Assembly: GCA_900320185.1 (NCBI GenBank)
Contig: ONRD01000023.1
Coordinates: 1 to 46,499, forward strand
Length of the DNA stretch: 46,499 bases
Source: an uncultured Bacteroidales bacterium
GTDB lineage: Bacteria; Bacteroidota; Bacteroidia; Bacteroidales; UBA932
Direction of reading: 5' to 3'
A program made the translations under genes and the position numbers. Positions within the stretch are counted from its first letter, which is position 1; each line of letters begins with the position of its first letter. The notes beneath the pieces were generated by a model. The model was not told the DNA's origin. It made no database searches and worked only from the letters and a program-made list of their open reading frames with translations. This document shows, one piece after another, positions 534 through 19,690 of this stretch.

Positions 534-1109
534 TCACCACAGTTCCCACATGCTGGCCTCGGGGAGTTCCTCCTCCCCGGTCGGTCGCCAAGTCAGACGG
601 TCGTAGTTGAACCGCGTCAGGTCGCTGTCGCGGTGCCTCGGGTCCATCAGCTCCGCAGCCGCCTCCCCGAGGGACTTCCCCGCCCGAAGCAACTCGCCGA
701 AACGCCCGGCGAAGTCCCACGCCTTCCCGTCTATCTCTTCCGCATCGGCCTTCACCCCGTTCATCCACGCCTCGGGCTCCTCCGAGATGAACATCCCGCT
801 GAAGAACCCCTTCAGCCCGTGTTTGTAGGCGAAGCTTGACGCATAGCACCATATTCCGACAAGGTTCTGACGGTCTTGGAGCAACTCCGCATCGGAGTCC
901 TTTAGGATCAGGCCGTAGCGCAGGTCGTAGAGGCCGTCCGGGCTTCCGTGCCCGAGAAGGAGGACGGGCTCATCCTTCGGAGCAGCAGCTATGGCCGCGA
1001 GGATTTCGTCACGCTGCAGATATGAGTCAAAGAGGGTCACGTCTTCAATCCCCTCGTAGATGAGGGAGAGCATCTTCGTGCTCGGGTCGCTGGGGTGTAC
1101 TACAATCAT
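534..1109 (-). CDS. Predicted caspase-like (clan CD) cysteine peptidase
   Basis: This 191-aa protein has the two-part signature of clan CD (caspase/CHAT/gingipain-like) peptidases. A hydrophobic strand runs into His-Gly (PVLLLGHGSPDG, His54), and about 30 residues later a second hydrophobic strand ends in Cys (NLVGIWCYASS, Cys88). The following segment (KHGLKGFFSGMFISEEPEA) resembles the loop and strand after the catalytic Cys in such folds. No signal peptide or membrane segment is visible, so it should be cytoplasmic. It lies 69 nt downstream of the sigma-factor gene in a leftward run with the helicase. The catalytic assignment comes from motif spacing only. A non-peptidase Rossmann-like protein is the main alternative. 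Confidence 0.55.
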   Translation of the reverse strand: MIVVHPSDPSTKMLSLIYEGIEDVTLFDSYLQRDEILAAIAAAPKDEPVLLLGHGSPDGLYDLRYGLILKDSDAELLQDRQNLVGIWCYASSFAYKHGLKGFFSGMFISEEPEAWMNGVKADAEEIDGKAWDFAGRFGELLRAGKSLGEAAAELMDPRHRDSDLTRFNYDRLTWRPTGEEELPEASMWELW

Positions 1110-1130
1110 CTTTATCCATTTGCTTTGTAA

Positions 1131-1141
1131 CTATCTACTGC
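1131..1141 (-). promoter_or_regulatory. Weak island-type element before the caspase-like gene
   Basis: The minus strand reads GCAGTAGATAG about 22 nt before the ATG at 1109. It is an imperfect match to the island GG(A)GTATATA element, in the expected position. Confidence 0.2.
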
Positions 1142-1178
1142 ACATTCCGGCAATCCTTTCACCCCCAACACAAAAAAT

Positions 1179-1892
1179 CTATTCTTGCAGAAGTATGGAC
1201 ACCAGCCCTTCGGCCATCCTGTCCACGTCAAGAGAGGGAACGATCGGATTGGGCAGGATGAATCGCTGCACTTCGGAAGATATGGAGATATTCTTTGCGA
1301 AGACGGTGTTGTTCAGTTCATAGCAGTACCGCAGATACTCGTTCCTGGTCATCTCCATCAGCTTCGGAAGACGCTTGAAGATATGGTGGCGCCGCACGCT
1401 CACGTAATTCTCGGAGATATGCAGCGCTTCCGCTGAACGGGCCACGTAACTGGACCTGTCCTCCAGATAGTAGTTCAGGATGACCTGGTCGCTGGGAGAC
1501 AATTTACCGATTGCAGCCCTCAAACGCGGGATGAGCTTTTCCCGCGCCTCGGGAGAATCATCCTCGACATAAGCGCGGACCGCCGTCTTGAAATCGTCGA
1601 TATCCTGCTGCACCGCCGCCCTTTTCGTCTCCCTGGTCATCTCGTCCACGATCTCGTTATGGACAAGGGTGGAGAGGTAGGTCGTTATTTTCGCACCCCT
1701 GTTCGAGTCATAATGGGCGAAAGCCTTTTCCAGGGAGGAGAGCACGGCCGCATCCTTCACATATTCCAGGTCCACCCGTTTGTCGGGCATACCGTTCTTC
1801 TTGACCAGCCGCTGCAGATGGACTTCCGCATAGGTCCTGGCAGAGTCATAGTAGAGTTCGCAGAACCCGTTCCAATTCAAGTCATTCATCAT
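1179..1892 (-). CDS. Sigma-70-family RNA polymerase sigma factor, helicase-coupled
   Basis: The 237-aa protein has a sigma region 2 at about residues 5-85, with an ECF-like block (AHYDSNRGAKITTYLSTLVH, then NEIVDEMTRETKR). A region-4 helix-turn-helix lies around residues 125-180 (LSPSDQVILNYY, ALHISENYVSVRRHH). A C-terminal extension of about 55 residues follows region 4 and may be regulatory. The start is ATG at 1892 or 1889. Either overlaps the helicase stop TGA at 1884-1882, so the two proteins are probably translationally coupled. A frame-open extension upstream lies inside the helicase gene and is discounted. It could direct transcription from the TATATA-type promoters of the island, but no target is proven. 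Confidence 0.85.
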   Translation of the reverse strand: MMNDLNWNGFCELYYDSARTYAEVHLQRLVKKNGMPDKRVDLEYVKDAAVLSSLEKAFAHYDSNRGAKITTYLSTLVHNEIVDEMTRETKRAAVQQDIDDFKTAVRAYVEDDSPEAREKLIPRLRAAIGKLSPSDQVILNYYLEDRSSYVARSAEALHISENYVSVRRHHIFKRLPKLMEMTRNEYLRYCYELNNTVFAKNISISSEVQRFILPNPIVPSLDVDRMAEGLVSILLQE

Positions 1893-4800
1893 ATCGGTCG
1901 AGTATCCAGTTTCTTCTGATGGTCCATCCAAGGCCTTCCAGGACCTGAGGACGGATAATCTCCCTGTCACGGGCGGATTCTGCGGACGCATAGCCAGGGC
2001 CATCCAGCAGGATTCCGTACAGGTAGCTGCCCGGATGGGAAGGGTCCACGACACCCACGTCCACCCGGAAATCGGAGGAACCGATGCCGGTATGGACAAT
2101 GTGGCCGTCCGCCCGCAGCTCCGCAGCGATCTTTTCCGCAAAGGGGTCCGCCACTGTACGGGAGGAGGCTGCGCCGTCCAGCGTTTCCCGCCCGTCCCGA
2201 GCATACTTCAGGAAAGCTTTCAGGTCACTGACACCGCGCGGAATGAATCCGTCTCCGGATATCTGCTCGGGAGCCAGGGACGAAAAGACCGTCATCTCCC
2301 GACGCGCCCGGGAGACGGCGACATTCAGCCTGCGCCATCCGCCGTCCTGGTTCAACGGGCCGAAATTCAGCGAGACACGTCCCTTGCGGTCCACCCCATA
2401 TCCGATGGAGAAGAGGATGACATCCCGCTCGTCGCCCTGGACGTTCTCCAGGCTCTTCACGAACAAGGGCTCCGCCTGCCGGGCCGCAATCCGCGACAAG
2501 GGCTTGTTCTTCAGGAACATCTCCTCCAACTTCTTGTCGATGAGATTCTTCTGGCTGACATTGAATGTCACGATTCCGATGCTTCTGGCGGACTCCTGCG
2601 GATCGGAGAGTCGGCGTTTGACATCCTGCACGACGGCATCCGCCTCCGCCTCGTTGGTCCGTGTCCGCCCCCTGTCGTAAGTGCCGTTGACGGCCACGAA
2701 ACGGACCCGTGTCGTCAAGTCGTCATTGGAGGGGAAAGTCAAAAGGGAGTTATCGTAATAATTCGCATTGCTGAAGGCGATCAGGCTCTCGTGCCGGCTG
2801 CGGTAGTGCCATTTCAGATGCACCGAAGGCAGGGATAGGGCGATGCATTCGTCAAGAATACTCTCCAGATCCTCCTTCTCGGCATTCTCCTCGTCAAACA
2901 CCCCCGTTTCAAAGAACGATGTCGGCGGAAGCTGCTTGGGGTCACCCACGACGATGAGGGACTTTCCCCGGGCGATGGAAGCCACCGCTTCGCTGGTGGG
3001 AAGCTGGGAGGCCTCGTCGAAGATGACCAGGTCGAACTGACCGCCGACCGGCCGGAGATATTGCGACACGGAGAGCGGGCTCATCAGCATGCAAGGGCAC
3101 AGGCGCGGGAGCAGGTTCGGGATCCTGTCGAAAAGGTTCCGGAGGGACACCCCGCGGGAATTGTTCCGGATCGCCTTCTTGAGAACCGTCATCTCCGGTC
3201 CCTTGGAAAGGGTGTCCTCCGGTCCGGGCAGGCGGGACGCCACCCTGGCGACAAGTTCCTGGCGAGACGTCTCGCGGAAAGCGGTGTCATCCTCGCGGAA
3301 CTTCCTGACAAATGACTCGAACAGCTCTCCGCAGAAGATGCCGAGTCCCTTTTCCCGGTCAAGGATATAGGAGGCATATGACCGGTAAAAACTTTTGACG
3401 AAGAAGTCCTTGAGACCCTCCGGGCAGATGTGTCCCGATTCGAACTCCTCCACGACCAGGCTCAGCCCCAGGCCGCACATGCGCGCTTTCTGCCGGGCAT
3501 AGATTGCGTACATCTTCATCACGGAAAGATTCGTCTGCCAACGGGAGACCTTTTCGCGAAGAAGGGTCATGGCCTCTCTGGAAAGCCGGACGCCGACCGG
3601 CCGGCCGAGCTCCCGCTCCAGTTTCCGGGCCTCCCACCAGAAAGGGAGGAGTCCGGACTTCCCCAGGACCGTGGAGAACCGTTCCGAAAGCCGCTCGCGG
3701 AGTTCCGGACTGTATTCCACGACCGGCAGGTCGAACAACGGACAGTCGGCACGGACTCCGGAGTGCCGGATCGCCGTCACGTAATCCTCCAGGGCAGAAC
3801 GTATATCCCGGAAACCGCCCGCATCCAGCGAAGCAAGGATGGAGGAAGGGAGGCGTCGCACCGGCATATCCTCCGGCAGATGGAGATAACCGGATACGCA
3901 ATCATAGAGTGAGAAAACGGCAGGATAGACCCGGTTGACCGCTTCCGCATGGAAATCCAGCCTGCTCTTCTCCGCATCCATCCGCGTCGCATCGGCAGCG
4001 AAACAAGGCGGAGCCGACTTCGGGGAGAGATTGATGACATGGTCCAGTTTCGACAGGACAACGGACTTCCGAGCCTTGTTGGAATGCAGTTCCAGACAGA
4101 ACGGGTCAAGGCCGATATCTTCCAGCCGCTTCTGGACAACCTCCAGGGCAGCTTTTTTCTCCGAGACGAAGAGAACCCGTTTCCCGGCGTACAGGGCGTT
4201 GGCGATGATGTTGGTGATCGTCTGGCTCTTTCCGGTTCCGGGAGGGCCGTGCATCACGAAACTGCGCCCGGCCACGGCGTCGCGGATGGCGCGCAACTGG
4301 GACGAATCGGCGCTGATCGGCTGGAGAATCTCAGCAGAAGGGCACAGTTCGTCGACACGTCCTTCCGGTGGAACGATATCCTGGACCTTGAGCCGTCCGT
4401 CCATCAGGCTGGAAACGGCCGGATGCGCGTCCAGCATGCCGCGGTGGACATGGATATCATTCCAGATGATGAACTTGTTGAACGTGAAGTTTCCCAGGAA
4501 CACCAGCTGCTCCACATCCCAGCCTTTCTTGTCCATCACCGCGCGCCGGATCGTACCCATCACTTTTGTCACGGCAACGTGCCCGTCTTTCTCGGGGAGC
4601 GTGTCCAGTCCGGGAATGGCGAGTCCGTGCTGCTGGCGGAGCATTTCAAGCAGTGTCAGGTTGGCGGTAATGTCCTCTCCCGTCCACTTGATACTCCACG
4701 TCGCCTTGGTGATCTCCACGGGAATTAGGAGAATCGGGGCGAAATGCGGCGTTGTACCGTCTTCGTCCATCCATTTCAGTGCACCGACGGACAGATACAG

Positions 4801-6270
4801 CGTATTGGCGCCGTTCTCTTCCAGGTAATGCCGGGCCTCCTTCCGGATGGCGTCCAGCTTGAACACCGTATTTTCCTCCGGTACAAAGGAGTGAAACCGC
4901 CGGTCCTTCATTTCCTTATAGGCAAATACGGACATCGGATCCTCCGGACCCGTTTCCTGGAACAATCCGTTCTGCCGGCATTTTCCGGTCCAGCCCTGCG
5001 GGGCACCGAAAATATGGAAACCGATGCCGTCCTCCAGCATCGAAACGGCGTCTTCCATCCCGGAGCCGATCAATTGGAGGACGCCTTTGTTCGCATGAAG
5101 GTTGATCAGGTTGTTCCGAAGGGTCAGGTCCAGGAGCTTCCGCTCCCAGATCGTATGCTTGTCCACCTTGGCCGGGCGGTCGATGTCGATCTCCTCCGGT
5201 CCGCCGAGCGGCAGCGGCCTGTCATGCTTCCAGACCGTTTCTTCGTCGATGACATAACCGTCCTTGGTCAGGATGCGCTGCGGCAGGGGCAGGATACCCA
5301 GGTTCCTGGCCGAACGGATATCGATGAACAGCAGAAAACTGTCCATATCCGACAAGGTCCCGTTTGCGGTCGAGACGGCCGTGTCGAAACTGAATCCGTT
5401 CCCTTTCAGGAAACCTGTCGTCTCGACGAGGACCAGTTCGTCGATACCTGCCGCCCCGCTCTTGCGCAACAGGGCCGGGTCGTCATTCACGGGATAAGGG
5501 GACGACTTCTCCACCAACCAAGCGCCGGAATAAGCATGTCCGTCATGCAGGACGACAAGCGGCCGAAGCCCCACGGCTTCCAGGCAGCCGGCATACAGAA
5601 GGGCGGCGTCCAGGCAGGTCGCCAGCCTTCCGGACAGGATGTCCTCCGGAAGACGGACCCGCTGTCCCCGGTCGGCAAAGGAAGCTGGCGGATTGGCATA
5701 GGTCAATCCCTCGCCGGCAATGGCATCGTAGACAGCCGCCATCATCAGCTTGGAGCGGTTGGGGTCGCCGGACTGGTAGCCGTCCAATGCGGGGCTACCT
5801 GTCCATGCCCCGAGTATTTCCGAGGCGCGTTGGAGGGTGGGACGGATGGCAGGATGATTCGGAACCACGAATGAGGCCAACAGTTCGGGAGATTCGTTCA
5901 CCCCTTCCCAGAAATCATAGGGCAGAAGGGTGACCGGATACTCCTCCTTCATAAGGCAGGTCCCGACCGATTCGCAGGAGACGGTCATCTTCCCTTCCAT
6001 CCTTTCCGTAAGGTTGGCCAGGAAAGAAGCAGAGGGAAGAATCCGGATGTTATCCAGCACCGTCTTCCCCTTGGGAATCTCGCTGAGATGCGATTCGTAT
6101 CCGGTCGAGAAAGGAGGGTCGAAACGGATGGAAAAAGGGATATCTGTCAGTGGTTCCTTTTCCGTGTTCTTCAGGATGACGGAACGTACCGCCGGTATGC
6201 CGTTCTGCATACGGACGTAGCTGAAGGTCCTGGAATAGTCGGTTTGGATGGTCATGGTCTGGAAAATCAT
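1882..6270 (-). CDS. DUF4011-type SF1 helicase with transglutaminase-like and Vsr-like endonuclease domains
   Basis: The 1462-aa protein is multidomain. An N-terminal beta-rich region is followed by a transglutaminase-like segment (ATCLDAALLYAG, Cys about 217; GHAYSGAW, His about 245). A DUF4011-like region covers about 370-560. A superfamily-1 Upf1-like helicase follows, with Walker A HGPPGTGKS near 680, Walker B VIFDEASQLP near 1083, motif V VQGDERDVILFS and motif VI LNVAVSRARRE. The C-terminus is a PD-(D/E)XK/Vsr-like nuclease domain (FRVDVGVVDP, LYGILLDGPGY, ARDREIIRPQVL). Helicases of this plan are often found in defence islands and act on nucleic acid. The gene overlaps the sigma-factor gene downstream. 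ATG 6270 has an island GGTATATA element 18 nt upstream; Met6 is an alternative start. Confidence 0.88.
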   Translation of the reverse strand: MIFQTMTIQTDYSRTFSYVRMQNGIPAVRSVILKNTEKEPLTDIPFSIRFDPPFSTGYESHLSEIPKGKTVLDNIRILPSASFLANLTERMEGKMTVSCESVGTCLMKEEYPVTLLPYDFWEGVNESPELLASFVVPNHPAIRPTLQRASEILGAWTGSPALDGYQSGDPNRSKLMMAAVYDAIAGEGLTYANPPASFADRGQRVRLPEDILSGRLATCLDAALLYAGCLEAVGLRPLVVLHDGHAYSGAWLVEKSSPYPVNDDPALLRKSGAAGIDELVLVETTGFLKGNGFSFDTAVSTANGTLSDMDSFLLFIDIRSARNLGILPLPQRILTKDGYVIDEETVWKHDRPLPLGGPEEIDIDRPAKVDKHTIWERKLLDLTLRNNLINLHANKGVLQLIGSGMEDAVSMLEDGIGFHIFGAPQGWTGKCRQNGLFQETGPEDPMSVFAYKEMKDRRFHSFVPEENTVFKLDAIRKEARHYLEENGANTLYLSVGALKWMDEDGTTPHFAPILLIPVEITKATWSIKWTGEDITANLTLLEMLRQQHGLAIPGLDTLPEKDGHVAVTKVMGTIRRAVMDKKGWDVEQLVFLGNFTFNKFIIWNDIHVHRGMLDAHPAVSSLMDGRLKVQDIVPPEGRVDELCPSAEILQPISADSSQLRAIRDAVAGRSFVMHGPPGTGKSQTITNIIANALYAGKRVLFVSEKKAALEVVQKRLEDIGLDPFCLELHSNKARKSVVLSKLDHVINLSPKSAPPCFAADATRMDAEKSRLDFHAEAVNRVYPAVFSLYDCVSGYLHLPEDMPVRRLPSSILASLDAGGFRDIRSALEDYVTAIRHSGVRADCPLFDLPVVEYSPELRERLSERFSTVLGKSGLLPFWWEARKLERELGRPVGVRLSREAMTLLREKVSRWQTNLSVMKMYAIYARQKARMCGLGLSLVVEEFESGHICPEGLKDFFVKSFYRSYASYILDREKGLGIFCGELFESFVRKFREDDTAFRETSRQELVARVASRLPGPEDTLSKGPEMTVLKKAIRNNSRGVSLRNLFDRIPNLLPRLCPCMLMSPLSVSQYLRPVGGQFDLVIFDEASQLPTSEAVASIARGKSLIVVGDPKQLPPTSFFETGVFDEENAEKEDLESILDECIALSLPSVHLKWHYRSRHESLIAFSNANYYDNSLLTFPSNDDLTTRVRFVAVNGTYDRGRTRTNEAEADAVVQDVKRRLSDPQESARSIGIVTFNVSQKNLIDKKLEEMFLKNKPLSRIAARQAEPLFVKSLENVQGDERDVILFSIGYGVDRKGRVSLNFGPLNQDGGWRRLNVAVSRARREMTVFSSLAPEQISGDGFIPRGVSDLKAFLKYARDGRETLDGAASSRTVADPFAEKIAAELRADGHIVHTGIGSSDFRVDVGVVDPSHPGSYLYGILLDGPGYASAESARDREIIRPQVLEGLGWTIRRNWILDRYDE

Positions 6271-6288
6271 TTTGCCGTATTCACCGAA

Positions 6289-6296
6289 TATATACC
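6289..6296 (-). promoter_or_regulatory. GGTATATA promoter-like element of the helicase-sigma operon
   Basis: The minus strand reads ACGGGGTATATATTC, ending about 18 nt before the helicase ATG, in the 109-nt gap after the aspartic peptidase gene. It is one of the clearest copies of the island element and probably serves the helicase, sigma-factor and caspase-like genes. Confidence 0.45.
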
Positions 6297-6379
6297 CCGT
6301 TTTCCTGAAATCTTAAACCCGAACGGAAACAAATATAGGCATTTCGGCCGACAAATGACCCTTTTCGGTTCCGATAAGA

Positions 6380-7057
6380 CTACTTGTCAACCCACACTCC
6401 CCCTTCCGCGATGAGAAGCGGCCGCTGCAGGAGCAGTTCTATCCCGACGACTCCGTCCACTCCGAGAAGCCCCAGCACCGAACCCATCATCTGAGGGAGG
6501 TGTCCAGCGCGCATCGTGAACGATAATCCCGCGAAGGAAGCCGGGAACTCGAAGAGCGGGGTCTCGAAGACATCACCGGGGACGAAGGGGTTGAAGTCCT
6601 CCACCGTCCCGACGGAAGGGAGGCCCTCCGTGAGGGATTCGGACACATACGAAGTCGGAGCGCCCGTATCGATGATGACGCTCGCCACCCGTCCACGGAT
6701 CTCCATCTCCAGCGACATGTATCCCATCCCGAGGCGCGAAGGAACGCGGGTCATCCCGTCCGTCGGGCAGCCGAATACAACCCGGCCGCCGGGGACGTCC
6801 ACGAGAAGTCCGCCCTCTCCGATGATGTCCATCCCGACGAGCCCGTCAACCGTCTCCCCCACCTTGTCGGTGATATAGGCGGAGTCGACGCCCATTAGGG
6901 TTGTTGGCACTTCGAAGGATTCACCTCCAACGGAGATGACCCCGTCGCAGTGGAAACTGAGGGGACTGCCCGTATCGATGAGCAGCGTAGTGTCGCGTTC
7001 GTCGCGGATGAGGATGTGACCGCGGACGATTCGGATGGGGTATTTTGTCTTGTTCAT
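6380..7057 (-). CDS. Two-lobed retropepsin/pepsin-like aspartic peptidase
   Basis: The 225-aa protein contains two consecutive aspartic-peptidase lobes. Lobe 1 has TLLIDTGSPLSF (Asp28) and the hydrophobic-Gly psi-loop motif DGLVGMDII (71-79). Lobe 2 has VIIDTGAPTSYV (Asp130) and DGVVGIELL (201-209). Each lobe is about 110 residues, the size of a retropepsin monomer, so one chain could make a complete two-Asp active site as pepsin does. There is no signal peptide, so it should act in the cytoplasm. It starts 13 nt after the stop of the HAD/ADP-ribosylglycohydrolase gene. GGTATATAC fills most of that gap. The substrate is unknown; a role processing a partner protein is inference. Confidence 0.75.
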   Translation of the reverse strand: MNKTKYPIRIVRGHILIRDERDTTLLIDTGSPLSFHCDGVISVGGESFEVPTTLMGVDSAYITDKVGETVDGLVGMDIIGEGGLLVDVPGGRVVFGCPTDGMTRVPSRLGMGYMSLEMEIRGRVASVIIDTGAPTSYVSESLTEGLPSVGTVEDFNPFVPGDVFETPLFEFPASFAGLSFTMRAGHLPQMMGSVLGLLGVDGVVGIELLLQRPLLIAEGGVWVDK

Positions 7058-7061
7058 GTCC

Positions 7062-7070
7062 GTATATACC
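7062..7070 (-). promoter_or_regulatory. GGTATATAC element in a 13-nt intergenic gap
   Basis: The entire gap between two leftward genes is GGTATATACGGAC, followed by the ATG at 7057. If it is a promoter, the resulting message would be nearly leaderless. Confidence 0.35.
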
Positions 7071-8300: not shown

Positions 8301-8319
8301 AGTCAATTGTTTGTCAAGT

Positions 8320-11661: not shown

Positions 11662-11714
11662 GAGCGGCTCCCGCGCAGAGAACGGGATCGCCCCCGAAAG
11701 AATCATCAGCATTC

Positions 11715-11728
11715 GGAGTATATATAGG
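11715..11728 (+). promoter_or_regulatory. GGAGTATATATAGG element upstream of the AAA+ ATPase
   Basis: It lies 13 nt before the ATG at 11742, in the 80-nt gap after the 102-aa gene. It is among the longest matches to the island element. Confidence 0.45.
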
Positions 11729-11741
11729 AAAACCATCAAGC

Positions 11742-13442
11742 ATGAGAAGAAGAGAAAACAACCCCGGGAAGAGTTTCTTCGCAGCCAATGCGGAGCTACC
11801 CACCCTTGCCGCCTGCCTGAACAGCATCTACAAGAAGGTCAACGCCGAAGGACTCGGCGAGGACACCTCGCACGAGCTCGAGGGGGATATCCAGACCGTC
11901 TCCGACCGCTTCGGCATCTCGCCGAAGGCGGCGGTCCTCCTTGCGGCCATCCTGGAGAACGACGCCAAGAACGGCTGCGACGACGACGACCTCTCGGGCT
12001 ACGTCGGGTGCTCGAACATCGAGTTCATCGGCTTCCGGGGCGCCCTCCGCGAGATGGAGGAGAAGGGCATCGTGAGCCGCCGCAACGGCCGCTGCAACAA
12101 CCGGTACGTCATGGGCCGGGAGGCCCTGAAGGCCGTCGAGAAGGGAACGGCGTTCACCCCCGTGAGCCGCACCGGGCTCTCGGCGGACGAGCTTTTCACC
12201 CGCTTCCGCATCGTCTTCGCCGACTTCCACCGCGACAACATCGACGCGGAGCGACTCCTGGAGGACCTCAAGCAGCTCGTGGTGGACAACCCCCAGCTGG
12301 GGTTCTGCCAGAAGGCGGCCGGGGTGCTGTCGGCCCCCGCCTACTGCGACACGGAGAAGCGTTTCTTCCTCGCGCTCTGCCACCGGTACGTCAGCCACGG
12401 CGAGCGGTCCGTCACCATCGAGCGCCTGCTCGCCTACACGGAGTTCATGGAGGATGACCAGCGCATCCGCCGCGCCCTCGCGGCCGAGCGCAGCGACCTC
12501 CAGCGGTCCGGACTCGTCACCTTCGGCGGCGACGAGGGGTTCCAGGACACTGAGAGCCTCGCCCTCTCCGACGAGGTGAGGAGGACCTTCTTCACGGAGG
12601 TCACCCCCGTCAGGGAGCCAGCGGTGAACCGCCGGGACCTCATCCCCGCCTCGGCCATCAAGCCCCGGGAGCTCTTCTACGACGGGAAGGTCGCCTCTCA
12701 GATGGAGCGCCTTGCCTCCCTGCTGGAGCCCGCTAACTTCGCGGGCGTCCAGGAGCGGCTCTCCGAGATGGGCATGCGCAAGGGCTTCGCCGTTCTCTTC
12801 TCCGGCGGTGCCGGCTGCGGCAAGACCGCCGGGGCCTACGAGCTCGCACGGCGCACCGGACGCGATGTCTTCGCAGTGGACATGTCCGAACTCAAGAGCA
12901 AGTGGGTCGGTGACTCCGAGAAGATTGTCAAGGGGGTCTTCACGGCCTACCGGCAGATGTGCCGCAGCCGAGAGCTCGCGCCCATCCTCCTCTTCAACGA
13001 GGCTGACGCCATCTTCGCCAAGCGCCTCGAGAACCCGCAGGACAGCGTGGACCAGATGATGAACGCCATCCAGAACATCTGCCTGGAGGCCATCGAGAAC
13101 CTCGACGGCATCCTCATCGCCACCACCAACCTTGCCGCGAACTTCTGCGACGACGCTTTCGCCCGCCGGTTCCTCTTCAAGGTGGAGTTCGAAAAGCCCG
13201 GGCCGGAGACCCGTTCGAAAATCTGGCGGTCGATGGTGGACGGCCTCTCCGAGGAGGACGCCCTCACCCTCGCCACCCGCTATGACTTCTCCGGCGGCAA
13301 CATTGAGAACATCGCCCGCAAGGCGGCCGTCGGTTACGTCCTCTCCGGACGGAAAGCGGGCATCGGGGAGCTCGCCGGGTACTGCGACGAGGAGACCCTC
13401 TCCTCCTCCAGGGGCGCGCGGAGAATCGGATTCCAGTCCTAG
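11742..13442 (+). CDS. AAA+ ATPase with winged-helix-like N-terminal region
   Basis: The 566-aa protein has an N-terminal region of about 330 residues, including a winged-helix-like stretch (FRGALREMEEKGIVSRRNGR). One classical AAA module follows: Walker A GGAGCGKT near 355, Walker B LLFNEADAI near 417 with Asn for the usual first Asp, sensor 1 LIATTNLAANF, the arginine-finger region DDAFARRF and sensor 2 FSGGNIENIARKA. This resembles Bacteroidota AAA proteins related to the FtsH/VCP/spastin group, which remodel protein complexes. The Glu of Walker B is kept, so it should hydrolyse ATP. ATG 11742 follows an island promoter element; the longer frame open from 11463 runs through the previous gene. 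The next gene starts 3 nt after its stop. Confidence 0.85.
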   Translation: MRRRENNPGKSFFAANAELPTLAACLNSIYKKVNAEGLGEDTSHELEGDIQTVSDRFGISPKAAVLLAAILENDAKNGCDDDDLSGYVGCSNIEFIGFRGALREMEEKGIVSRRNGRCNNRYVMGREALKAVEKGTAFTPVSRTGLSADELFTRFRIVFADFHRDNIDAERLLEDLKQLVVDNPQLGFCQKAAGVLSAPAYCDTEKRFFLALCHRYVSHGERSVTIERLLAYTEFMEDDQRIRRALAAERSDLQRSGLVTFGGDEGFQDTESLALSDEVRRTFFTEVTPVREPAVNRRDLIPASAIKPRELFYDGKVASQMERLASLLEPANFAGVQERLSEMGMRKGFAVLFSGGAGCGKTAGAYELARRTGRDVFAVDMSELKSKWVGDSEKIVKGVFTAYRQMCRSRELAPILLFNEADAIFAKRLENPQDSVDQMMNAIQNICLEAIENLDGILIATTNLAANFCDDAFARRFLFKVEFEKPGPETRSKIWRSMVDGLSEEDALTLATRYDFSGGNIENIARKAAVGYVLSGRKAGIGELAGYCDEETLSSSRGARRIGFQS

Positions 13443-13445
13443 GCC

Positions 13446-14420
13446 ATGGACAGCTGCACGGTCCATACGACCCGGGTCATCTCCGTCTTCGACGTCTGGG
13501 CGGTCTATGACCGGAACTGGCGCAAGCCCCACTACCCCTCCTATATGGTGCGGCAGGAGAAAGTCGGCAGCGCCCTAGACCTCGAGGGTGCGGAGCGGAT
13601 CGTCCGGGAAACCGTCCGGTTCCAGGCCGAAGCCGCATTCGGGGGTGATAGGCTGCATAGCCTCCGGATCGTGGAGATCCCCCTTGGCGGCTACGCCCCG
13701 GAGTGGCAGACCCTCTCGGAGTACGTCTACGACCACGAAGGGGACCGGCTGGACTGCCGGACCATCCCCTGCGAGGACGGCGTCTTCTCCGGGCGCACTC
13801 CCGGGGAGATCCGTTTCCGGGAAGGGGACCTCTGCGAGGTCCTCAAGGAGGGAAGGGTCGTCCTGGGCTGCATCACTGGGCTTCCCCCGTCCGTCGAACG
13901 GTGTGCCAAGGTCAACGGGACCGGCGCCGCCATGGACTCTTCCGACGACTGCTACTACGTGCTCACGTCGCAGGATGCCTACACGGAGCCCACCGACGCC
14001 CTCCGCGTTTTCAAACCCCGCTACAAGATCGCTCTGCGGACGGAAAGGAGGATTCTCCAGGCATACAACGACTACAGGACCTTCCCAATACGTATGTCAA
14101 TCGCTGACACGGCCGCCTGGGCCAGGCTCAAGGGTGCGGCGGAGGAGCTCGGCTGGGTTGTCCGCCGGATCGAGACGCCCCGGTGGAAGGATGACACGTT
14201 CAAGCTGATGCTGGACGGCGTCCCCGGATTCCCGGATGGACTGGATCTTCAGGTCATGCAGAAGACGGTCTGGCAGCACATGGACCGCATACTCGTTTCC
14301 TTCCGGCGCCTGGCAGGACTTCCAGCCGAGGGACGAGGGTACCGGCTCAAGAGGATCGTCCCTCCGCCGCCGCTCGTGAAGGGCATTCCCGTTCCGGAAG
14401 ATCCTATGTACCGACTATGA
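13446..14420 (+). CDS. Hypothetical protein coupled to the AAA+ ATPase
   Basis: The 324-aa protein begins MDSCTVHTTRVISVFDVWAV, only 3 nt after the ATPase stop and with no promoter-like element between, so the pair is cotranscribed. It has no signal peptide and no membrane segment. The first half is strand-rich (IPLGGYAPEWQTLSEYVYDH, VVLGCITGLPP); the second half is more helical and ends in a Pro-rich tail (IVPPPPLVKGIPVPEDP). I do not recognise the family. Position suggests a substrate, adaptor or effector of the ATPase. Confidence 0.7.
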   Translation: MDSCTVHTTRVISVFDVWAVYDRNWRKPHYPSYMVRQEKVGSALDLEGAERIVRETVRFQAEAAFGGDRLHSLRIVEIPLGGYAPEWQTLSEYVYDHEGDRLDCRTIPCEDGVFSGRTPGEIRFREGDLCEVLKEGRVVLGCITGLPPSVERCAKVNGTGAAMDSSDDCYYVLTSQDAYTEPTDALRVFKPRYKIALRTERRILQAYNDYRTFPIRMSIADTAAWARLKGAAEELGWVVRRIETPRWKDDTFKLMLDGVPGFPDGLDLQVMQKTVWQHMDRILVSFRRLAGLPAEGRGYRLKRIVPPPPLVKGIPVPEDPMYRL

Positions 14421-14448
14421 CGATTCTACAAAAGACCACATTTCTGCA

Positions 14449-14460
14449 GGAGTATATCAT
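14449..14460 (+). promoter_or_regulatory. GGAGTATATCAT element upstream of the lipoprotein
   Basis: It lies 13 nt before the ATG at 14474, just after the previous stop. The spacing is the same as for the ATPase gene. Confidence 0.4.
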
Positions 14461-14473
14461 CCTAAACAAGCAA

Positions 14474-15145
14474 ATGATGCACAGACTGATCATCCCATTC
14501 TTTCTGACCCTCGCATGCACCGCAGCATGCGTCCACCCGGCAGGCTCAGACGATCCCGCCCCGGAGGAGATCCTTGCCCGGATGAGGGCGGACTCCTCCT
14601 GGATACGGGAGCTGGATTCCCTCGCCGCCGAGGCCATCGGGCCGGGGGCGCGCTGCATCGACCCCGTGTGGCACCTTTTCGGGCAGGACGGCCGGAAGTG
14701 GCTGTTCAACCAGGACTGGGGCGGGGTCCTCGAGATCCCTTCGGGCTACATCCCGGAGGACGACCTCTGGCAGGCCGAGCTGTCCTTCCACGGGACGCGG
14801 GCCTTCTCCCCCGACTCGATGGTCGTCATCTCCTTCTACGCTGGGTTCCAAGCCATCGGGAACGAAGAGCTCGCGGATGCTGTTAGGAAAGACCTTGACG
14901 GGGATGGATTCGCCATCGAGCATATGGACGTGGATGACCGGGAGTTCCGGATCACCGCCCGGAGTGCCGGAGGCATCCACTACTATGCACGCTATCTCTT
15001 CGCGGACGGGGATGGCGTCGAATATGCTGCCGGGGTGCAGTTCCCGGCCGGCAGGGAGAATGAGGCGGAAGAGATCATCCGGATGATCCAGCGCTTCCCT
15101 CTCGGCCCGGGAGGACGCCCTTTCCGGGGACTTGCGCTCCAATGA
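14474..15145 (+). CDS. Predicted lipoprotein of unknown function
   Basis: The 223-aa product starts MMHRLIIPFFLTLACTAACV, a short lipoprotein signal with a lipobox-like Cys, so it should be exported and anchored. The mature part is acidic, contains the calcium-loop-like stretch DLDGDGFAIEHMDVDD, and ends in an amphipathic helix (ENEAEEIIRMIQRF). Starting at 14474 puts the element GGAGTATATC 13 nt upstream; an ATG at 14417 would add an improbable hydrophilic leader and overlap the previous gene. It is the only clearly exported product of the island and may link it to the envelope. I do not recognise the family. Confidence 0.7.
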   Translation: MMHRLIIPFFLTLACTAACVHPAGSDDPAPEEILARMRADSSWIRELDSLAAEAIGPGARCIDPVWHLFGQDGRKWLFNQDWGGVLEIPSGYIPEDDLWQAELSFHGTRAFSPDSMVVISFYAGFQAIGNEELADAVRKDLDGDGFAIEHMDVDDREFRITARSAGGIHYYARYLFADGDGVEYAAGVQFPAGRENEAEEIIRMIQRFPLGPGGRPFRGLALQ

Positions 15146-15223
15146 AGGCGGCCGTGTCCGATAACATCTCAGCCTAAAGAATACACTTTATTTAGCGGCA
15201 GCATGAAAGGATTGCGGTTTTCC

Positions 15224-15238
15224 GGAGTATTACTTAGG
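15224..15238 (+). promoter_or_regulatory. GGAGTATTACTTAGG element
   Basis: It lies 19 nt before a 39-codon ORF and is preceded by TTTTCC, as is the next element at 15416. It is a variant of the island motif. Confidence 0.3.
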
Positions 15239-15257
15239 GCAGCATACATAAAGGCAT

Positions 15258-15377
15258 ATGAATAATACCTCCAAACCCTTCGTCCGCGGCGCATACTCCC
15301 ATATCCGCTCCCTCTCACGCTCCTTTGACCTCCGCCACCTCCCCGTTATCCGGTACAGCCTTGACGGCAGGTGGTAG
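15258..15377 (+). CDS. Possible small ORF (39 aa), Arg-rich
   Basis: ATG 15258 to TAG 15377 encodes a 39-residue basic peptide (MNNTSKPFVRGAYSHIRSLS, then RSFDLRHLPVIRYSLDGRW). It has its own upstream island-type element and fills the gap between the lipoprotein and the 104-aa gene. The peptide is too short for firm coding evidence; it could be leader sequence rather than a gene. Confidence 0.35.
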   Translation: MNNTSKPFVRGAYSHIRSLSRSFDLRHLPVIRYSLDGRW

Positions 15378-15415
15378 GAAAGACGGGATTTTCCGTAATC
15401 TTTGACTCCTTTTCC

Positions 15416-15429
15416 GGTATAGATATATG
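15416..15429 (+). promoter_or_regulatory. GGTATAGATATATG element of the MoxR-VWA operon
   Basis: It lies 19 nt before the ATG at 15449. A TTGACT hexamer precedes TATATG by 16 nt, so a conventional -35/-10 reading is also possible. It is the only candidate promoter before the 104-aa, MoxR and VWA genes. Confidence 0.4.
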
Positions 15430-15448
15430 TAACCAAGACGAACTGAAC

Positions 15449-15763
15449 ATGAGAAGCTACGACAAGCCCTACTTAAGCGAGAAGAAGTACATCAAGAACC
15501 AGGTCGAGACCCTCTCAGGCGAGAGGCTCGCCTTCCTCGGCGGCGACCGCCTCGGCGACCTCGACATTCTCGGCGAGGACCCGCAGGTCTGCCGCAAGGT
15601 CCGGCGCATCCTGGAGAAGCGGGTCTGCCAGCGTTTCTGGAAGAACGCCTCCCCTGGGAAGCGGGCCGATAACCGCGCCCGTTTCGAGACCCGGCACCAG
15701 CTCTCGAACCACTACCGTAACATCTACGGCCTCGTCCCCGAGGAGTACCGCCTCTCCGCATAA
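15449..15763 (+). CDS. Hypothetical small basic protein (104 aa) heading the MoxR-VWA operon
   Basis: The protein is highly charged and helical (MRSYDKPYLSEKKYIKNQVE, later VCRKVRRILEKRVCQRFWK and FETRHQLSNHYRNIYGLVP). It has no signal or membrane segment, and its abundance of Arg and Lys would suit nucleic-acid or acidic-partner binding. ATG 15449 is chosen because it follows the element at 15416 by 19 nt with an A-rich leader; the frame upstream from 15371 looks non-coding. MoxR starts 13 nt after its stop. I do not recognise the family. Confidence 0.65.
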   Translation: MRSYDKPYLSEKKYIKNQVETLSGERLAFLGGDRLGDLDILGEDPQVCRKVRRILEKRVCQRFWKNASPGKRADNRARFETRHQLSNHYRNIYGLVPEEYRLSA

Positions 15764-15776
15764 AACCCAGTGACAC

Positions 15777-16862
15777 ATGTCCAACATCAGCATCAACACC
15801 ACCGAGCTCCAGCAGCTCCTCGACATCACCCCCGCCCACCAGAACATCATGCTGGTGGGCGCCCACGGCATCGGCAAGTCCGAGATACTCACCGAGTACT
15901 TCTCCGGGAAGGGGATGCGCGTCGTCCCCCTCTTCCTCGGGCAGATGTCCGACCCTGGGGACCTCATCGGCATCCCCAACCGCAACCAGTCCACCGGCAA
16001 GACGGAGTTCATGCCGCCGTGGTGGTTCCCCCTCGACGGGAAGCCCGTCGTCCTTTTCCTCGACGAGCTCAACCGCGCCCGTCCGGAGGTCCTGCAGACC
16101 ATCATGGACCTCGCGCTCAACCGCACCCTCGCCGGGAGGTCCCTCCCGGAGGGCAGCCGGATCATCTCGGCCGTCAACGCCGGGGACCAGTACCAGCTCA
16201 CCGACCTCGACCCCGCCCTCGTATCCCGCTTCAACGTCGTGACCTTCCGCCCGACCGTCCAGGAGTGGCTCCTCTGGGCGGAACGGGAGGGGGTTGACCC
16301 CCGCGTGAGGGACTTCGTCCGCGAGAACCCCATCTGGCTGGACAGGGACCCCGACGCCCGGGAAGGGGCGGACACGGGCCTGGACAAGACCCCGGACCGC
16401 AGGGCCTGGAAGCGGGTCTCGGACATCCTCATCCGGACGGGAGAGGTGACGCCCATCGTGACGAAGGCCGTCTCCGCCATAGTCGGGCCGAAGGCCGCCG
16501 CGGCCCTCGTCGGGAGCATCTCCGCCCGCAAGATCCTCTCGGGACGGGAGGTCCTCCAGCAGCTGGAGCGGCACCTCAAGACCCTCCGCGGGTATGAGCT
16601 CCACCAGCTGTCGACCGTCAACGACGGCATCTTCCGCCACCTCGAGGTCGAGGTCCTCTCCGGCAAGGAGAAGGAGAACGCGAAGAAGAACGTCGAGGCG
16701 TACTTCGACTTCCTCTCCAGGGAGAAGAAGGAGGCCGCCGCGCACTTCGCCTCCCTCTACGTCCAGGACACCTATCCGAAGGCCGTCTCGTTCATGGCCC
16801 GCGAGTGCCCCATACTCACCATGTCCATGGTTCTCTATGTCAAGAACATCGCCGTCCGCTGA
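15777..16862 (+). CDS. MoxR-type AAA+ ATPase
   Basis: The 361-aa protein shows the MoxR/ATPase_5 pattern: Walker A GAHGIGKS (28-35), Walker B VVLFLDELNRA (91-101), sensor 1 in ISAVNAGDQYQL (Asn134) and the conserved PALVSRF (Arg151). A helical C-terminal part of about 160 residues follows (EVLSGKEKENAKKNVEAYFD). MoxR ATPases act with VWA-domain partners as chaperone-like complexes that load or remodel client proteins. The VWA gene starts one nucleotide after this stop, so the pair is translationally linked. There is no promoter element between the 104-aa gene and this one, which makes one transcript from 15416 likely. Confidence 0.9.
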   Translation: MSNISINTTELQQLLDITPAHQNIMLVGAHGIGKSEILTEYFSGKGMRVVPLFLGQMSDPGDLIGIPNRNQSTGKTEFMPPWWFPLDGKPVVLFLDELNRARPEVLQTIMDLALNRTLAGRSLPEGSRIISAVNAGDQYQLTDLDPALVSRFNVVTFRPTVQEWLLWAEREGVDPRVRDFVRENPIWLDRDPDAREGADTGLDKTPDRRAWKRVSDILIRTGEVTPIVTKAVSAIVGPKAAAALVGSISARKILSGREVLQQLERHLKTLRGYELHQLSTVNDGIFRHLEVEVLSGKEKENAKKNVEAYFDFLSREKKEAAAHFASLYVQDTYPKAVSFMARECPILTMSMVLYVKNIAVR

Positions 16863-16863
16863 C

Positions 16864-18045
16864 ATGAGGGAACGTATCTCCGACATCCTCGAGGAGTGGT
16901 TCCTCCGCGAGCCGGTCCTCTTCCAGGTCCTCTGCGCACACTGCATCGAGGAGAACGCCTCCATACCCTGCCCGGTGCGGAGCGGCCTCCGCCGGGTCGA
17001 GTACAACCCCGGCCTCGTCCGGGAGATGTCCGACCGCGCCCTGGAGCAGGCGCTCCGGACGGAGGCCATCCGAATCCTCCTCAAGCACCCCTACCAGCGG
17101 CGGCCCGACGCCTGCTCCCAGCAGGCCGTCGCCGTCGGAAGCAACCTCACGATCGGGGACAACTACACGATGGAAAACATTCCCATCGAGCGGCCGAAGG
17201 ACTACGGCCTTCCCTCCGGACAGCCCTACGAGTGGTACTCGCGCCGCATCCAGGCGCTACTCCCTCAGGAGGGCGGAGAGGGAGACCGGCAGGAAGGTGG
17301 GGGCCCCTCCCCATCGGGTGTGCAAGGGAACGTCGGTGACGACGAACGCCGGCAGGCGCTCCGCTCCTCCGCCGAGAAAGACACCGCCCTCTCCGAGCTA
17401 TGGTCCGAGGACGAGCTGATGCTCACGCTCATCGACGGGATCATCGAGTCGGCGAAGGACTGGGGAACCCTTGCCGGGAGCTTCGCGGAGATGCTCAAGG
17501 CCTCGACGCGCTCGAGGATCGACTGGCGGAACGTCCTCTCGGGGTTCCGCGCCAGCATCCTGAGCACGAAACGGAAACTCACCCGCATGCGTCCCAACCG
17601 GCGCACGGGGTTCGACAACATGGGGTCCATCCGCCGCTTCGACACGCGGCTCCTTGTCGCCGTGGATGTCAGCGGATCCATCTCCTCGCAGGATCTCTCG
17701 TACTTCTACGGAGTAATCAACGGCGCCTTCCGCTACGGGTTCACCGTCGTGGACGTGCTGCAGTTCGACGTGGGGGTACGGGTGGTGCATACCCTCAGGA
17801 AGGTCATGCGGGACGTGGCCGTCGTCGGGCGGGGCGGGACCTCGTTCCAGGAGCCCATAGACTACGCCCACCAGAACGGATATGACGGGCTGGTGATCCT
17901 CACCGACGGATGCGCTCCGGAACCCGTCATCCCGGACGGGATGCGCTGCCGCATCGCCTGGGTGTGCGACAGGGAGGCCAGTTATGAACGGGCGCACCAC
18001 TGGATGGAGAAGTCCGGGCGGGTCTGCACCATGGAACTCAGATAA
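16864..18045 (+). CDS. VWA-domain protein with degenerate DUF2201-like metallopeptidase region
   Basis: The 393-aa protein pairs with the MoxR ATPase. The C-terminal VWA domain (about 262-393) has a MIDAS: LLVAVDVSGSIS (Asp268, Ser270, Ser272), GGTSF (Thr326) and LVILTDG (Asp348). The N-terminal part resembles the DUF2201 putative metallopeptidase region. Where that family has an HExxH-type zinc motif and a further His, here I read RTEAIRILLKHPYQRR: the two zinc His are replaced (Thr66, Arg70) while Glu67 and the later His75 remain. Catalysis is therefore unlikely, and the domain may have become a binding module. A linker with many Gly and Pro (about 136-160) separates the halves. Start ATG 16864 is one nt after the MoxR stop. 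Confidence 0.85.
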   Translation: MRERISDILEEWFLREPVLFQVLCAHCIEENASIPCPVRSGLRRVEYNPGLVREMSDRALEQALRTEAIRILLKHPYQRRPDACSQQAVAVGSNLTIGDNYTMENIPIERPKDYGLPSGQPYEWYSRRIQALLPQEGGEGDRQEGGGPSPSGVQGNVGDDERRQALRSSAEKDTALSELWSEDELMLTLIDGIIESAKDWGTLAGSFAEMLKASTRSRIDWRNVLSGFRASILSTKRKLTRMRPNRRTGFDNMGSIRRFDTRLLVAVDVSGSISSQDLSYFYGVINGAFRYGFTVVDVLQFDVGVRVVHTLRKVMRDVAVVGRGGTSFQEPIDYAHQNGYDGLVILTDGCAPEPVIPDGMRCRIAWVCDREASYERAHHWMEKSGRVCTMELR

Positions 18046-18062
18046 AAGATAAACATCGGATC

Positions 18063-18635
18063 ATGAAACCATTCAACGAACTGACGGAGAAGGAAATCCT
18101 CCAGGAAGGGATGAAGGCCGTCCGGGATTACCTGGCCGACATCCGGCAGACGCGGGTGTTCTCGCTTGAAGACTGCCTTGACAGGTGCCTCAAGCAGATA
18201 CGGGAGCTCTACCAGCGTTCCGTGGAGCCGGGGCAGTCGGCACGTATCGGAGGGGCGTGGTTCTTCAAGCCGCTGACGCAGGACAGGACGGCCGAACTGG
18301 AGCAGGTCCTTGCGCGTTTCCGTGGGCCGCTCCGGGAGAGAATCGTTGCCGTCGAGCAGCGTTACCTCCGCGTGCAGACGGTCTCCCGCATCAACGCGGC
18401 CGCCGCCACGGTGATTATCCGCTCGACCTTCCAGGCGGCGGGGCTGGCCCCCTGCGTGACGGGGCAGAAATACCGCGCAAGGGTGGAAGTGACGCTTCCG
18501 GAAGGGAACCATGTCCGCTTCTACGTACGGTACAAGGATCTCACCAGGGAGGGATTCGCGGATGAGATCCTCAAGGCCGTCCTGGATCTCGGGGACGCGC
18601 TGTCACGCCTCGGGTATGGGGCGGCCATCAGCTGA
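18063..18635 (+). CDS. Hypothetical protein (190 aa) in the MoxR-VWA operon
   Basis: The protein opens with helices (MKPFNELTEKEILQEGMKAV; DCLDRCLKQIRELYQRSVEP), continues with a basic helix (RFRGPLRERIVAVEQRYLR) and ends in a strand-rich part (YRARVEVTLPEGNHVRFYVR). There is no signal or membrane segment. It begins 17 nt after the VWA stop with an A-rich leader and no promoter element, so it belongs to the same transcript. I do not recognise the family. Its pairing with the next gene, whose middle part has the similar strand pattern HITIDLPNGRYRLYRGL, may mean the two are distant relatives or bind alike. Confidence 0.7.
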   Translation: MKPFNELTEKEILQEGMKAVRDYLADIRQTRVFSLEDCLDRCLKQIRELYQRSVEPGQSARIGGAWFFKPLTQDRTAELEQVLARFRGPLRERIVAVEQRYLRVQTVSRINAAAATVIIRSTFQAAGLAPCVTGQKYRARVEVTLPEGNHVRFYVRYKDLTREGFADEILKAVLDLGDALSRLGYGAAIS

Positions 18636-18650
18636 CAATAAGGAACACAT

Positions 18651-19502
18651 ATGACGAACCTCTGCACACTGTTTTTCGATTCAGCCATCACCATCTGCGG
18701 ACAGCCCACCCTGGAGGACCAGATAGCCTCCCTGGCGGAGCAATATGCCGGGGGCTTCCTGGAATCCTACCGGACAGGGCACCGTTCCTTTTCCCACAAC
18801 TCCGAATCCCCTTGGACCGGGCTGTGGGACTACCTCATGGAGCCACTCCTGGAGCATAGGAGAATGGTCCCCCGCGAGGCTCCTTCCGGAGCTCTTGCCG
18901 AGGAGGTGGCCGCCGAACTGATCCGGTCCGGGGTCGACAAGGAGGACATCCGGGCGAACCATCAGCATATCACGATCGATCTCCCGAACGGGAGGTACCG
19001 CCTTTACCGGGGGCTCCAGCCAGGGACGCCCGCAGGATCCCTCCGCATCCTCCTTCCTGGGCAGAGTCGCATCTTCGAAACGGGACTGGCCCCCGGTGAG
19101 CTGTCCCGTCTCATCCTTTTCATCGACTCGGTCATCCCGCCCCTCAAAAGGGTCATGGACCGGCTCGAGGAAGATATCCGGATAGCGGAGAAAGAGTACA
19201 TCGCCGGACAGAAAGCGGCAGAGATTGCAAGGAAGGCCGTTTCCAAGCTTCTCGAGGAGGTGCTGCCCGCCCTTGACATCGAGTTTTCCTTCGGGTTAGT
19301 CGGTGAAAGTGTCCGCCTGAACCTCAGGAAGGAGCTTCATGGCAGCGTCGACATTCCTTTGGACGAAATCCCATCGTTCCTCTCCGACTCCGACAGGATC
19401 CTTTCCACCCTCTCCCCGGTCAAGCCACAGCCGACCGAATGGATTCCTGCAACATCATCCTTCGGGAACCTGCGCGGCTGGCCGATAAAGCGTACAAAAT
19501 GA
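18651..19502 (+). CDS. Hypothetical coiled-coil-containing protein (283 aa)
   Basis: The 283-aa protein has a helical start (LEDQIASLAEQYAGGFLESY), a strand segment (HITIDLPNGRYRLYRGL) and a likely coiled coil around residues 160-205 (LKRVMDRLEEDIRIAEKEY, KAAEIARKAVSKLLEEVLP). No signal peptide, no membrane segment and no recognised family. It starts 15 nt after the 190-aa gene and its stop overlaps the next ATG (ATGA at 19499), so it sits inside the same operon. The coiled coil suggests an oligomeric or scaffold role; that is inference. Confidence 0.7.
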   Translation: MTNLCTLFFDSAITICGQPTLEDQIASLAEQYAGGFLESYRTGHRSFSHNSESPWTGLWDYLMEPLLEHRRMVPREAPSGALAEEVAAELIRSGVDKEDIRANHQHITIDLPNGRYRLYRGLQPGTPAGSLRILLPGQSRIFETGLAPGELSRLILFIDSVIPPLKRVMDRLEEDIRIAEKEYIAGQKAAEIARKAVSKLLEEVLPALDIEFSFGLVGESVRLNLRKELHGSVDIPLDEIPSFLSDSDRILSTLSPVKPQPTEWIPATSSFGNLRGWPIKRTK

Positions 19503-19690
19503 TTCCACCCTGCCTTCATGGCCGGAGCCACCCGCAGGTGAGCCGCTACAGCGACCCTGTCCGCTGGAGCCCCGACGTCGAGCCCCAGGCCAGGATGTTC
19601 CATTCCCCGGACATCTACGGTTACCTGGCAGTGGACGGCACTCTGTCCCACCATTTCAATGCCGACATCAACACATCGCTGAACGCCTAG
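19499..19690 (+). CDS. Hypothetical small protein (63 aa), ATGA-coupled
   Basis: The frame starts at ATG 19499, overlapping the TGA of the previous gene as ATGA, the classic translational-coupling arrangement. The product begins MIPPCLHGRSHPQVSRYSDP and ends HHFNADINTSLNA. A longer start at 19439 would put 63 nt more inside the upstream gene and is less likely. No family is recognised. It is the last gene of the rightward arm before base composition changes sharply. Confidence 0.5.
   Translation: MIPPCLHGRSHPQVSRYSDPVRWSPDVEPQARMFHSPDIYGYLAVDGTLSHHFNADINTSLNA

Follow-up and report, generated by a model that had tools for sequence, protein, structure and literature searches.

The window analysed here is a stretch of 46,499 nucleotides from an uncultured Bacteroidales bacterium (contig ONRD01000023.1 of assembly GCA_900320185.1, GTDB lineage UBA932). 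Its left part is occupied by an island whose genes are arranged in two divergent arms, and which very probably runs on into a second contig of the same genome (C28), where a second RpoD (RpoD2) is encoded. One promoter class, GAAAG-N16-18-GTATATA, precedes genes in both arms. Parts of both arms and of C28 recur in related genomes, in several permutations, beside a core formed by an AAA ATPase (gene K), a MoxR-type ATPase (P) and a vWA protein (Q). This core is patchily distributed and is accessory rather than core genome. We tentatively propose, with somewhat less than even confidence, that the island is a modular, sigma-controlled set of ADP-ribose-removing and remodelling functions that would act as an inducible conflict or repair response. 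The genes of the island in the window are:

Gene Z, 3-455, minus strand: no family assigned, cut by the contig end; GTATATA at its start
Gene A, 534-1109, minus strand: no family assigned; GAAAG-N17-GTAGATA upstream
Gene B, 1179-1892, minus strand: sigma-70 region 2 protein (sub-threshold Pfam match)
Gene C, 1882-6270, minus strand: DUF4011 superfamily 1 helicase with MTES_1575 nuclease (Pfam)
Gene D, 6380-7057, minus strand: aspartyl-protease-like protein with two DTG motifs (by eye)
Gene E, 7071-8300, minus strand: HAD remnant fused to an ADP-ribosylglycohydrolase (DraG)
Gene F, 8320-8811, minus strand: HD domain protein adjoining the DraG gene E
Gene G, 9178-9714, plus strand: extracytoplasmic function (ECF)-type sigma factor (sigma-70 region 2 by Pfam)
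Gene H, 9773-10252, plus strand: HD domain protein with distant relatives in Lak phages
Gene I, 10344-11222, plus strand: sigma-54 DNA-binding domain and RpoN box
Gene J, 11353-11661, plus strand: 102 aa, no family assigned; GTATATA upstream
Gene K, 11742-13442, plus strand: classical-clade AAA ATPase with a single AAA module
Gene L, 13446-14420, plus strand: no family assigned; a 47% relative lies between K and P in locus L032
Gene M, 14474-15145, plus strand: lipoprotein-like (by eye); AAAAG-N17-GTATATC upstream
Small open reading frame (ORF) N, 15258-15377, plus strand: 39 codons; GAAAG-N17-GTATTAC upstream
Gene O, 15449-15763, plus strand: no family assigned; relatives in loci L031 and L032
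Gene P, 15777-16862, plus strand: MoxR-type AAA ATPase (AAA_5)
Gene Q, 16864-18045, plus strand: vWA protein of the DUF2201 type
Gene R, 18063-18635, plus strand: no family assigned; follows Q in related loci
Gene S, 18651-19502, plus strand: no family assigned; relatives near Q in four other loci

The promoter class and its candidate readers

Six genes (A, D, I, K, M, N) are preceded by GAAAG (AAAAG for M) and, after a gap of 17 or 18 bases, by GTATATA or a near match. Three of these sites agree with the consensus throughout:

Promoter-like site before D, 7063-7091, minus strand: GAAAG-N17-GTATATA, 12/12
Promoter-like site before I, 10285-10314, plus strand: GAAAG-N18-GTATATA, 12/12
Promoter-like site before K, 11696-11724, plus strand: GAAAG-N17-GTATATA, 12/12

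For C and J the -10 part is present but the -35 is poorer, the site of O is weaker, and Z and F drop to 7/12 in the consensus scan, in the case of Z because the site overlaps the start codon. A conserved two-part promoter before several genes, as expected of an ECF sigma regulon, is present in the island; its shape (GAAAG, about 17 bases, GTATA) recalls that of ECF promoters.

The window contains 10 copies of the motif GTATATA where 0.86 would be expected, 0 of 100 shuffles reaching 10, and 8 of its 44 matches genome-wide (6 distinct places) fall within window positions 1-12000. Scored against the consensus, 9 of 11 upstream regions reach 9/12 and 4 of 11 reach 11, compared with 217 and 0, respectively, of 4000 random 100-mers from 20-46 kb of the window; this comparison is post hoc, the consensus having been derived from these sites and the 11 upstream regions having been chosen as candidates. 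In the genome itself AAAG-N16-18-GTATA has 17 matches (control pattern, 52), four of them in the island and each preceding an island gene, and all three matches of AAAGA-N16-GTATA (control, 5) are in the island. Elsewhere the latter pattern falls in the island locus in 3 of 5 cases in genome G079, on the island contig in 2 of 3 in G323, and near the island in 3 of 20 in G265 and 1 of 4 in G231; none was found near the island in the other P-carrying genomes searched.

The best independent test is the application of the window consensus, at a threshold of at least 11/12, to the loci of other genomes. Eighteen loci with a close P or RpoD2 (272 kb) contain 30 sites, 21 near an ORF start, over 10 loci (6 in L079). 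By comparison, 16 distant-P loci (281 kb) contain 5 sites, 2 near a start, and 21 non-island loci (263 kb), seven of which were fetched for holding a match, contain 9 sites and 1 near a start. Reversed controls gave 12, 13 and 5 sites in the close, distant-P and non-island groups. The second P locus of the same genome (L075) has one consensus site, not near a start. Loci L082, L129 and L130 lie outside all three groups.

With respect to the sigma factors, RpoD2 of C28 used as query matches 373 of 396 genomes, 10 of them with two matches. A tree covering nine of these second copies (the tenth genome, G092, was left out) placed six of them (G000, the genome of the window, and G245, G079, G097, G190 and G265) in a common group apart from the tight housekeeping group and three (G322, G351 and G392) elsewhere. 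All six genomes with the island-type RpoD2 possess P, as against 28 of about 396 (hypergeometric 7e-8), an association whose true strength is lower than this value suggests because the genomes are related. RpoD2 lies near K-P-Q in L076, L078, L079 and L080. The recognition helix in its region 4.2 resembles the one in the housekeeping RpoD, and therefore an ECF factor is the likelier reader of the promoter; RpoD2 as the direct reader of GTATATA was ranked second. In L079 the RpoD2 gene is itself preceded by GAAAG-N17-GTATATA, which would fit a cascade from ECF to RpoD2. On C28, PARG has GAAAG-N17-GTAAATA upstream (by eye) and RpoD2 has no clear site. In a flavobacterium, PMC9723704 reports a CGT-type -10 box for an ECF factor and TAnnTTTG for the housekeeping factor.

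Extent, distribution and linkage of the island

The window is the whole of contig C27 of its genome, a 2.28-Mb assembly of 49 contigs. The continuation of the island into C28 is deduced from the identity of the first 99 bases of the window with the last 99 of C28, and from gene Z, which reads through this overlap as a single ORF of 226 codons. The block thus very probably runs off the contig instead of ending at position 534, where the sequence-only reading had placed its limit. The adjacency, which is based on an assembly-graph overlap, is supported, not proven; independent support comes from C28-type genes that adjoin P-Q-R in L034 and L033. The island would comprise 15.2 kb on C28 (15,207 bases) and about 19.7 kb of the window.

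C28 encodes a microbial PARG, a PfkB kinase, a 352-aa protein, a NADAR protein, the RpoD paralogue with four sigma-70 regions, AbiEii (PADLOC E 2.3e-102), a ClpX-like AAA protein and an ECF-type sigma factor that scores near the Pfam cut-off. Adjoining NADAR there is a gene resembling an ADP-ribosyltransferase (ART), with weak matches to DUF3990, ART-PolyVal and PARP and no DarT-family match. The ADP-ribose theme is mostly located on this contig, outside the window. Proteins of 352, 424 and 287 aa gave no named family in Pfam, NCBIfam, PHROG and PADLOC scans; the 287-aa protein has one PHROG match, to a family with no assigned function, and a PDB sequence search gave no useful match for the 352-aa protein.

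At the right end of the island, the ORF at 19773-20138 (plus strand) has a third-position guanine-cytosine content of 0.39, against 0.74-0.95 in ORFs O to S, and could be either a recent arrival or the island boundary. For an empty-site comparison, HydE relatives were found in 5 of the 12 genomes searched, at only 40-46% identity. Further along the window, the ORF at 25469-26650 (minus strand) resembles by eye a REP-associated transposase, and adjacent similar proteins of secreted type at 38205-39545 and 39679-41106 (both minus strand) look like tandem duplicates; none of them has a Pfam match.

Relatives of P (E up to 1e-40) are present in 28 of 398 genomes of the family: identity is at least 64% in 13, where one gene is partial, and 48-59% in the other 15. 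K lies near P-Q in 11 of the 17 close-P loci long enough to judge, and relatives of R and S are found in nine and four other loci. The genome itself carries a second P-Q pair on contig C43 (L075, about 3900-17400; P 65%), near which there are an S relative, a Fic protein, repeat proteins and a DUF4062-NACHT protein.

Several loci join pieces of the two arms and of C28 to the core. In L034 (8180-29256 of a 157-kb contig) PfkB, the 352-aa family (76%), NADAR (65%) and ART (64%) are next to P-Q-R, and in L033 the helicase C (76%), the sigma factor B and the 352-aa family (73%) take this place. L079 contains S-Q-P-K, RpoD2, an ECF factor, the 352-aa family and PARG; L080 contains a ClpX-like gene, R-Q-P-K and RpoD2; and L083 contains Q-P with NADAR and ART. 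L101 combines ECF, RpoD2, a 52% relative of D adjoining RpoD2, HD, a further ECF and PARG, and L130 combines K, DraG and HD. The ART-type gene directly adjoins NADAR in C28, L034 and L083. In a Muribaculaceae locus (L040), two small ORFs flank a clear DUF3990 gene (3384-4286) that lies between the AAA gene (K) and the MoxR-vWA pair (P-Q). In many other loci MoxR-vWA occurs without the remaining modules.

A distant MoxR-vWA-AAA type is found in L087, L088 and L091, where an RtcB family (one of the three scanned by Pfam) adjoins Q or K. WYL regulators occur in eight related loci and an RNase_T-type exonuclease in five (one of each scanned by Pfam). The company of RtcB, WYL and exonuclease families around this distant type hints at RNA repair.

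Genes of the two arms

The gene block that the sequence-only reading had described between 534 and 19690 is borne out, C, E, F, G, H, I, K, P and Q being confirmed there by Pfam. Of the two sigma factors that it proposed, G was recognised by Pfam, whereas B stays under the cut-off (21.2 bits vs 24) and is backed by a 57% identical homologue placed after the same helicase in L033. The two predicted proteases fared worse. D matches the Pfam aspartyl proteases marginally (E 3e-5, 25.1 bits vs a cut-off of 24.3). In the metallopeptidase-like region of Q, HExxH is missing from all 28 sequences aligned, on which an active metallopeptidase was rejected; the vWA motif DxSxS is retained. Gene A has no family match in Pfam, PADLOC, NCBIfam and PHROG scans, its His/Cys motifs were seen by eye only, and its structure model is poor (42 in the predicted local distance difference test, pLDDT); a caspase-like fold is unsupported by this model, and the PDB sequence search gave one match at E 1. 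PADLOC, a defence predictor of the kind that had been suggested as a check, assigns C to the candidate family PDC-S37 (E 6.6e-293) and also to Hhe (4e-147), and matches AbiEii and the AAA part of K (IetA, E 7e-19).

In gene E the DraG domain is clear (PF03747, E 1.2e-28) and the N-terminal portion of the HAD part, with the nucleophile region, is unmatched. Its start is set at 8300, since the ORF extended to 8753 overruns the HD gene. No activator, core-binding or other RpoN domain was matched in gene I. Among 149 genomes no protein but gene I itself matches over the full length, the remaining matches being confined to the RpoN domain; this protein may compete or act as a repressor at sigma-54 promoters. 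The Walker B motif of K, NEAD, is invariant in 16 of 16 aligned sequences. Its N-terminal half is helical and looks by eye like two winged-helix units (model mean pLDDT 77), and the Foldseek matches of the model are AAA motors. In the MoxR-vWA pair formed by P and Q, the ATPase and vWA motifs are intact. L, R and S gave no named family in the Pfam, NCBIfam, PHROG and PADLOC scans, and the small ORF N may encode a leader peptide or a small regulator.

Known systems, rival explanations and significance

Iyer et al. (2022, PMC9503650, section 3.8) predicted host systems centred on ADP-ribosylglycohydrolase (ARG, DraG) that would counteract ADP-ribosylation by viruses. As described there, they belong to actinobacteria, planctomycetes and proteobacteria, carry Nudix or WYL regulators (>42% of cases) and have no coupled ART. 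They share with the island an ARG domain accompanied by HD or HAD proteins, a chaperone of the vWA type, NADAR, a nuclease-helicase and modularity. The island differs from them in its Bacteroidales host, its sigma factors and private promoter, its MoxR and AAA partners and, perhaps, the weakly matched ART-like gene of C28, which is beside NADAR and not beside DraG. Their coupled phosphatase (rhodanese-type, HD, HAD or calcineurin) has counterparts in the HD genes F (next to DraG) and H, and their peptide-binding chaperone in Q, which is not adjacent to DraG. Neither Nudix nor WYL regulators were found among the window and C28 proteins scanned, WYL being present in related loci only. It is this likeness that led us to propose inducible ADP-ribose removal and remodelling.

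Other systems resemble parts of the island. Like the ternary MoxR-vWA conflict systems of the FtsH type (Kaur et al. 2020, PMC7159879), it combines MoxR, vWA and a classical-clade AAA protein, but the third part is described there as having two FtsH-type AAA domains, the first inactive, and K has one. The MoxR and vWA-metallopeptidase pair of jumbo phages (PMC7824862) has, as in P-Q, a vWA protein with a metallopeptidase-type N-terminus, and P and Q match PHROGs 1297 and 1314. However, the phage pair is proposed there to act in virion assembly, whereas Q lacks HExxH and the island is chromosomal. DarT-NADAR toxin-antitoxin pairs (PMC11125620, PMC11543638), as these sources present them, have an ART-type gene beside NADAR, as do C28, L034 and L083, but the C28 gene gives no DarT-family match. 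Unlike the IetA system, no subtilisin partner of K was recognised here, and K scores 63 bits against the NCBIfam anti-phage ATPase model (cut-off 510). No described system of this make-up was recognised in the literature searched, largely at abstract level.

According to our proposal, the island would be transcribed from its own promoter class, probably read by its ECF factors (G, that of C28 and perhaps B), with RpoD2 acting downstream or in parallel. Induction would yield the ADP-ribose-removing enzymes DraG (E), PARG and NADAR, together with HD proteins, whose task may be to process the nucleotides or ends that are released. It would also yield an ATP-driven machine of K, P and Q with R and S, plus the ClpX-like unfoldase, which may bind and remodel modified or damaged complexes, and, as a second line, the DUF4011 helicase-nuclease and AbiEii. 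The most likely role would be the reversal of ADP-ribosylation caused by a phage, a rival or the ART-like protein of the island itself. Protection against phages may be surmised from family resemblance only.

The island might instead be a gathering of independent defence modules (helicase-nuclease, AbiE, ART-NADAR, MoxR-vWA-AAA and DraG-HD) in a hot spot, their common promoter being that of a host stress sigma factor. This we regard as possible, if doubtful. The frequent solitary MoxR-vWA, the varying permutations, a helicase that is by itself a PADLOC candidate family and an AbiEii of known toxin type speak for it, but the same uncommon partners recur, RpoD2 accompanies P in every copy examined, and the promoter class covers both arms and reappears in the islands of other genomes. 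An RNA-damage repair regulon, in which remodelling ATPases, HD and ADP-ribose enzymes would mend RNA after attack by a nuclease or an ART, is improbable. The RtcB, WYL and exonuclease neighbours described above agree with it, as does the statement in PMC11833690 that bacterial PARG can act on ADP-ribosylated RNA. Against this, neither RtcB nor RNA ligase was matched among the window and C28 proteins scanned, and the MoxR linked to RtcB is of the distant type, about 55% identical.

It is more improbable still that the block was left by, or is shared with, large phages or a megaplasmid and lacks a host function of its own. MoxR has relatives in 335 phage records, the best of them at about 29% identity, HD has relatives in 15 Lak phage records (about 30%), and jumbo phages carry a MoxR-vWA pair (PMC7824862). 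Nevertheless, three viral-contig scans gave no close relative, on which viral origin was rejected; Q has two distant plasmid records, the close relatives sit on bacterial contigs, and no structural phage gene was found among the proteins scanned.

Several observations also weigh against the sigma-controlled island that we propose. The whole gene order is absent from every fetched locus. The HD gene occurs in 10 of 394 genomes, only three of which have P (P 0.028), and 8 of 394 genomes match a fragment (63 residues) of the 352-aa protein, four with P, these being the best matches (60-100% identity), and four without P at 33-55%. Relatives of G above 130 bits are limited to 3 of 58 genomes (G000, G245 and G079); all three have P and RpoD2, but 6 of the 7 high-scoring ECF matches had been used to build the model, and their co-occurrence is not decisive. 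Two genomes, G323 and G231, have the motif near P but lack a second RpoD. Over all ORFs the pattern test is weak (7 of 159 island-family vs 17 of 716 other ORFs; for GTATATA alone 13 and 20, for its reverse 6 and 12), which is due in part to the location of many island genes inside operons and of many of the other ORFs inside islands. Genome-wide, the loose pattern is rarer than its reversed control in 11 of 11 relatives, among the matches listed. Finally, the contig join depends on one overlap, and the ART match on C28 is under the Pfam cut-off for DUF3990.

The sequence-only reading had seen in the block one regulated system. The block is indeed accessory, by the distribution of MoxR, and the two arms do meet elsewhere, in pieces: helicase and sigma factor beside MoxR-vWA in L033, AAA-DraG-HD in L130, and D, HD, ECF and PARG beside RpoD2 in L101. 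Common regulation gains from the promoter class and its recurrence in other genomes; the single fixed cassette is not supported, the order of the whole window having been seen in no fetched locus. The composite defence island, which had been offered as the alternative, is thus also right in part. The sequence-only interpretation is partly supported, with one promoter class common to exchangeable modules in place of a single fixed cassette.

In most descriptions, conflict genes form self-contained operons, each with a repressor of its own. In this island, modules that are unrelated to one another, an ADP-ribose-removal set and a chaperone machine among them, seem to have a private promoter class in common and to be accompanied on their travels by a second sigma factor of the primary type. 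The island could be, although we hold this with some doubt, a regulon for immunity or repair that has a transcription layer of its own, in which a lineage-specific RpoD2, ECF factors and a private promoter would run exchangeable modules as one inducible programme, new modules joining by gaining the promoter. Compared with the ADP-ribose and MoxR-vWA conflict systems predicted before, the sigma-factor layer is the new part. If this is true, the island shows how exchangeable conflict modules can be operated by a genome as a single regulon, and the bacterial reversal of ADP-ribosylation by attackers would become testable in a defined island.

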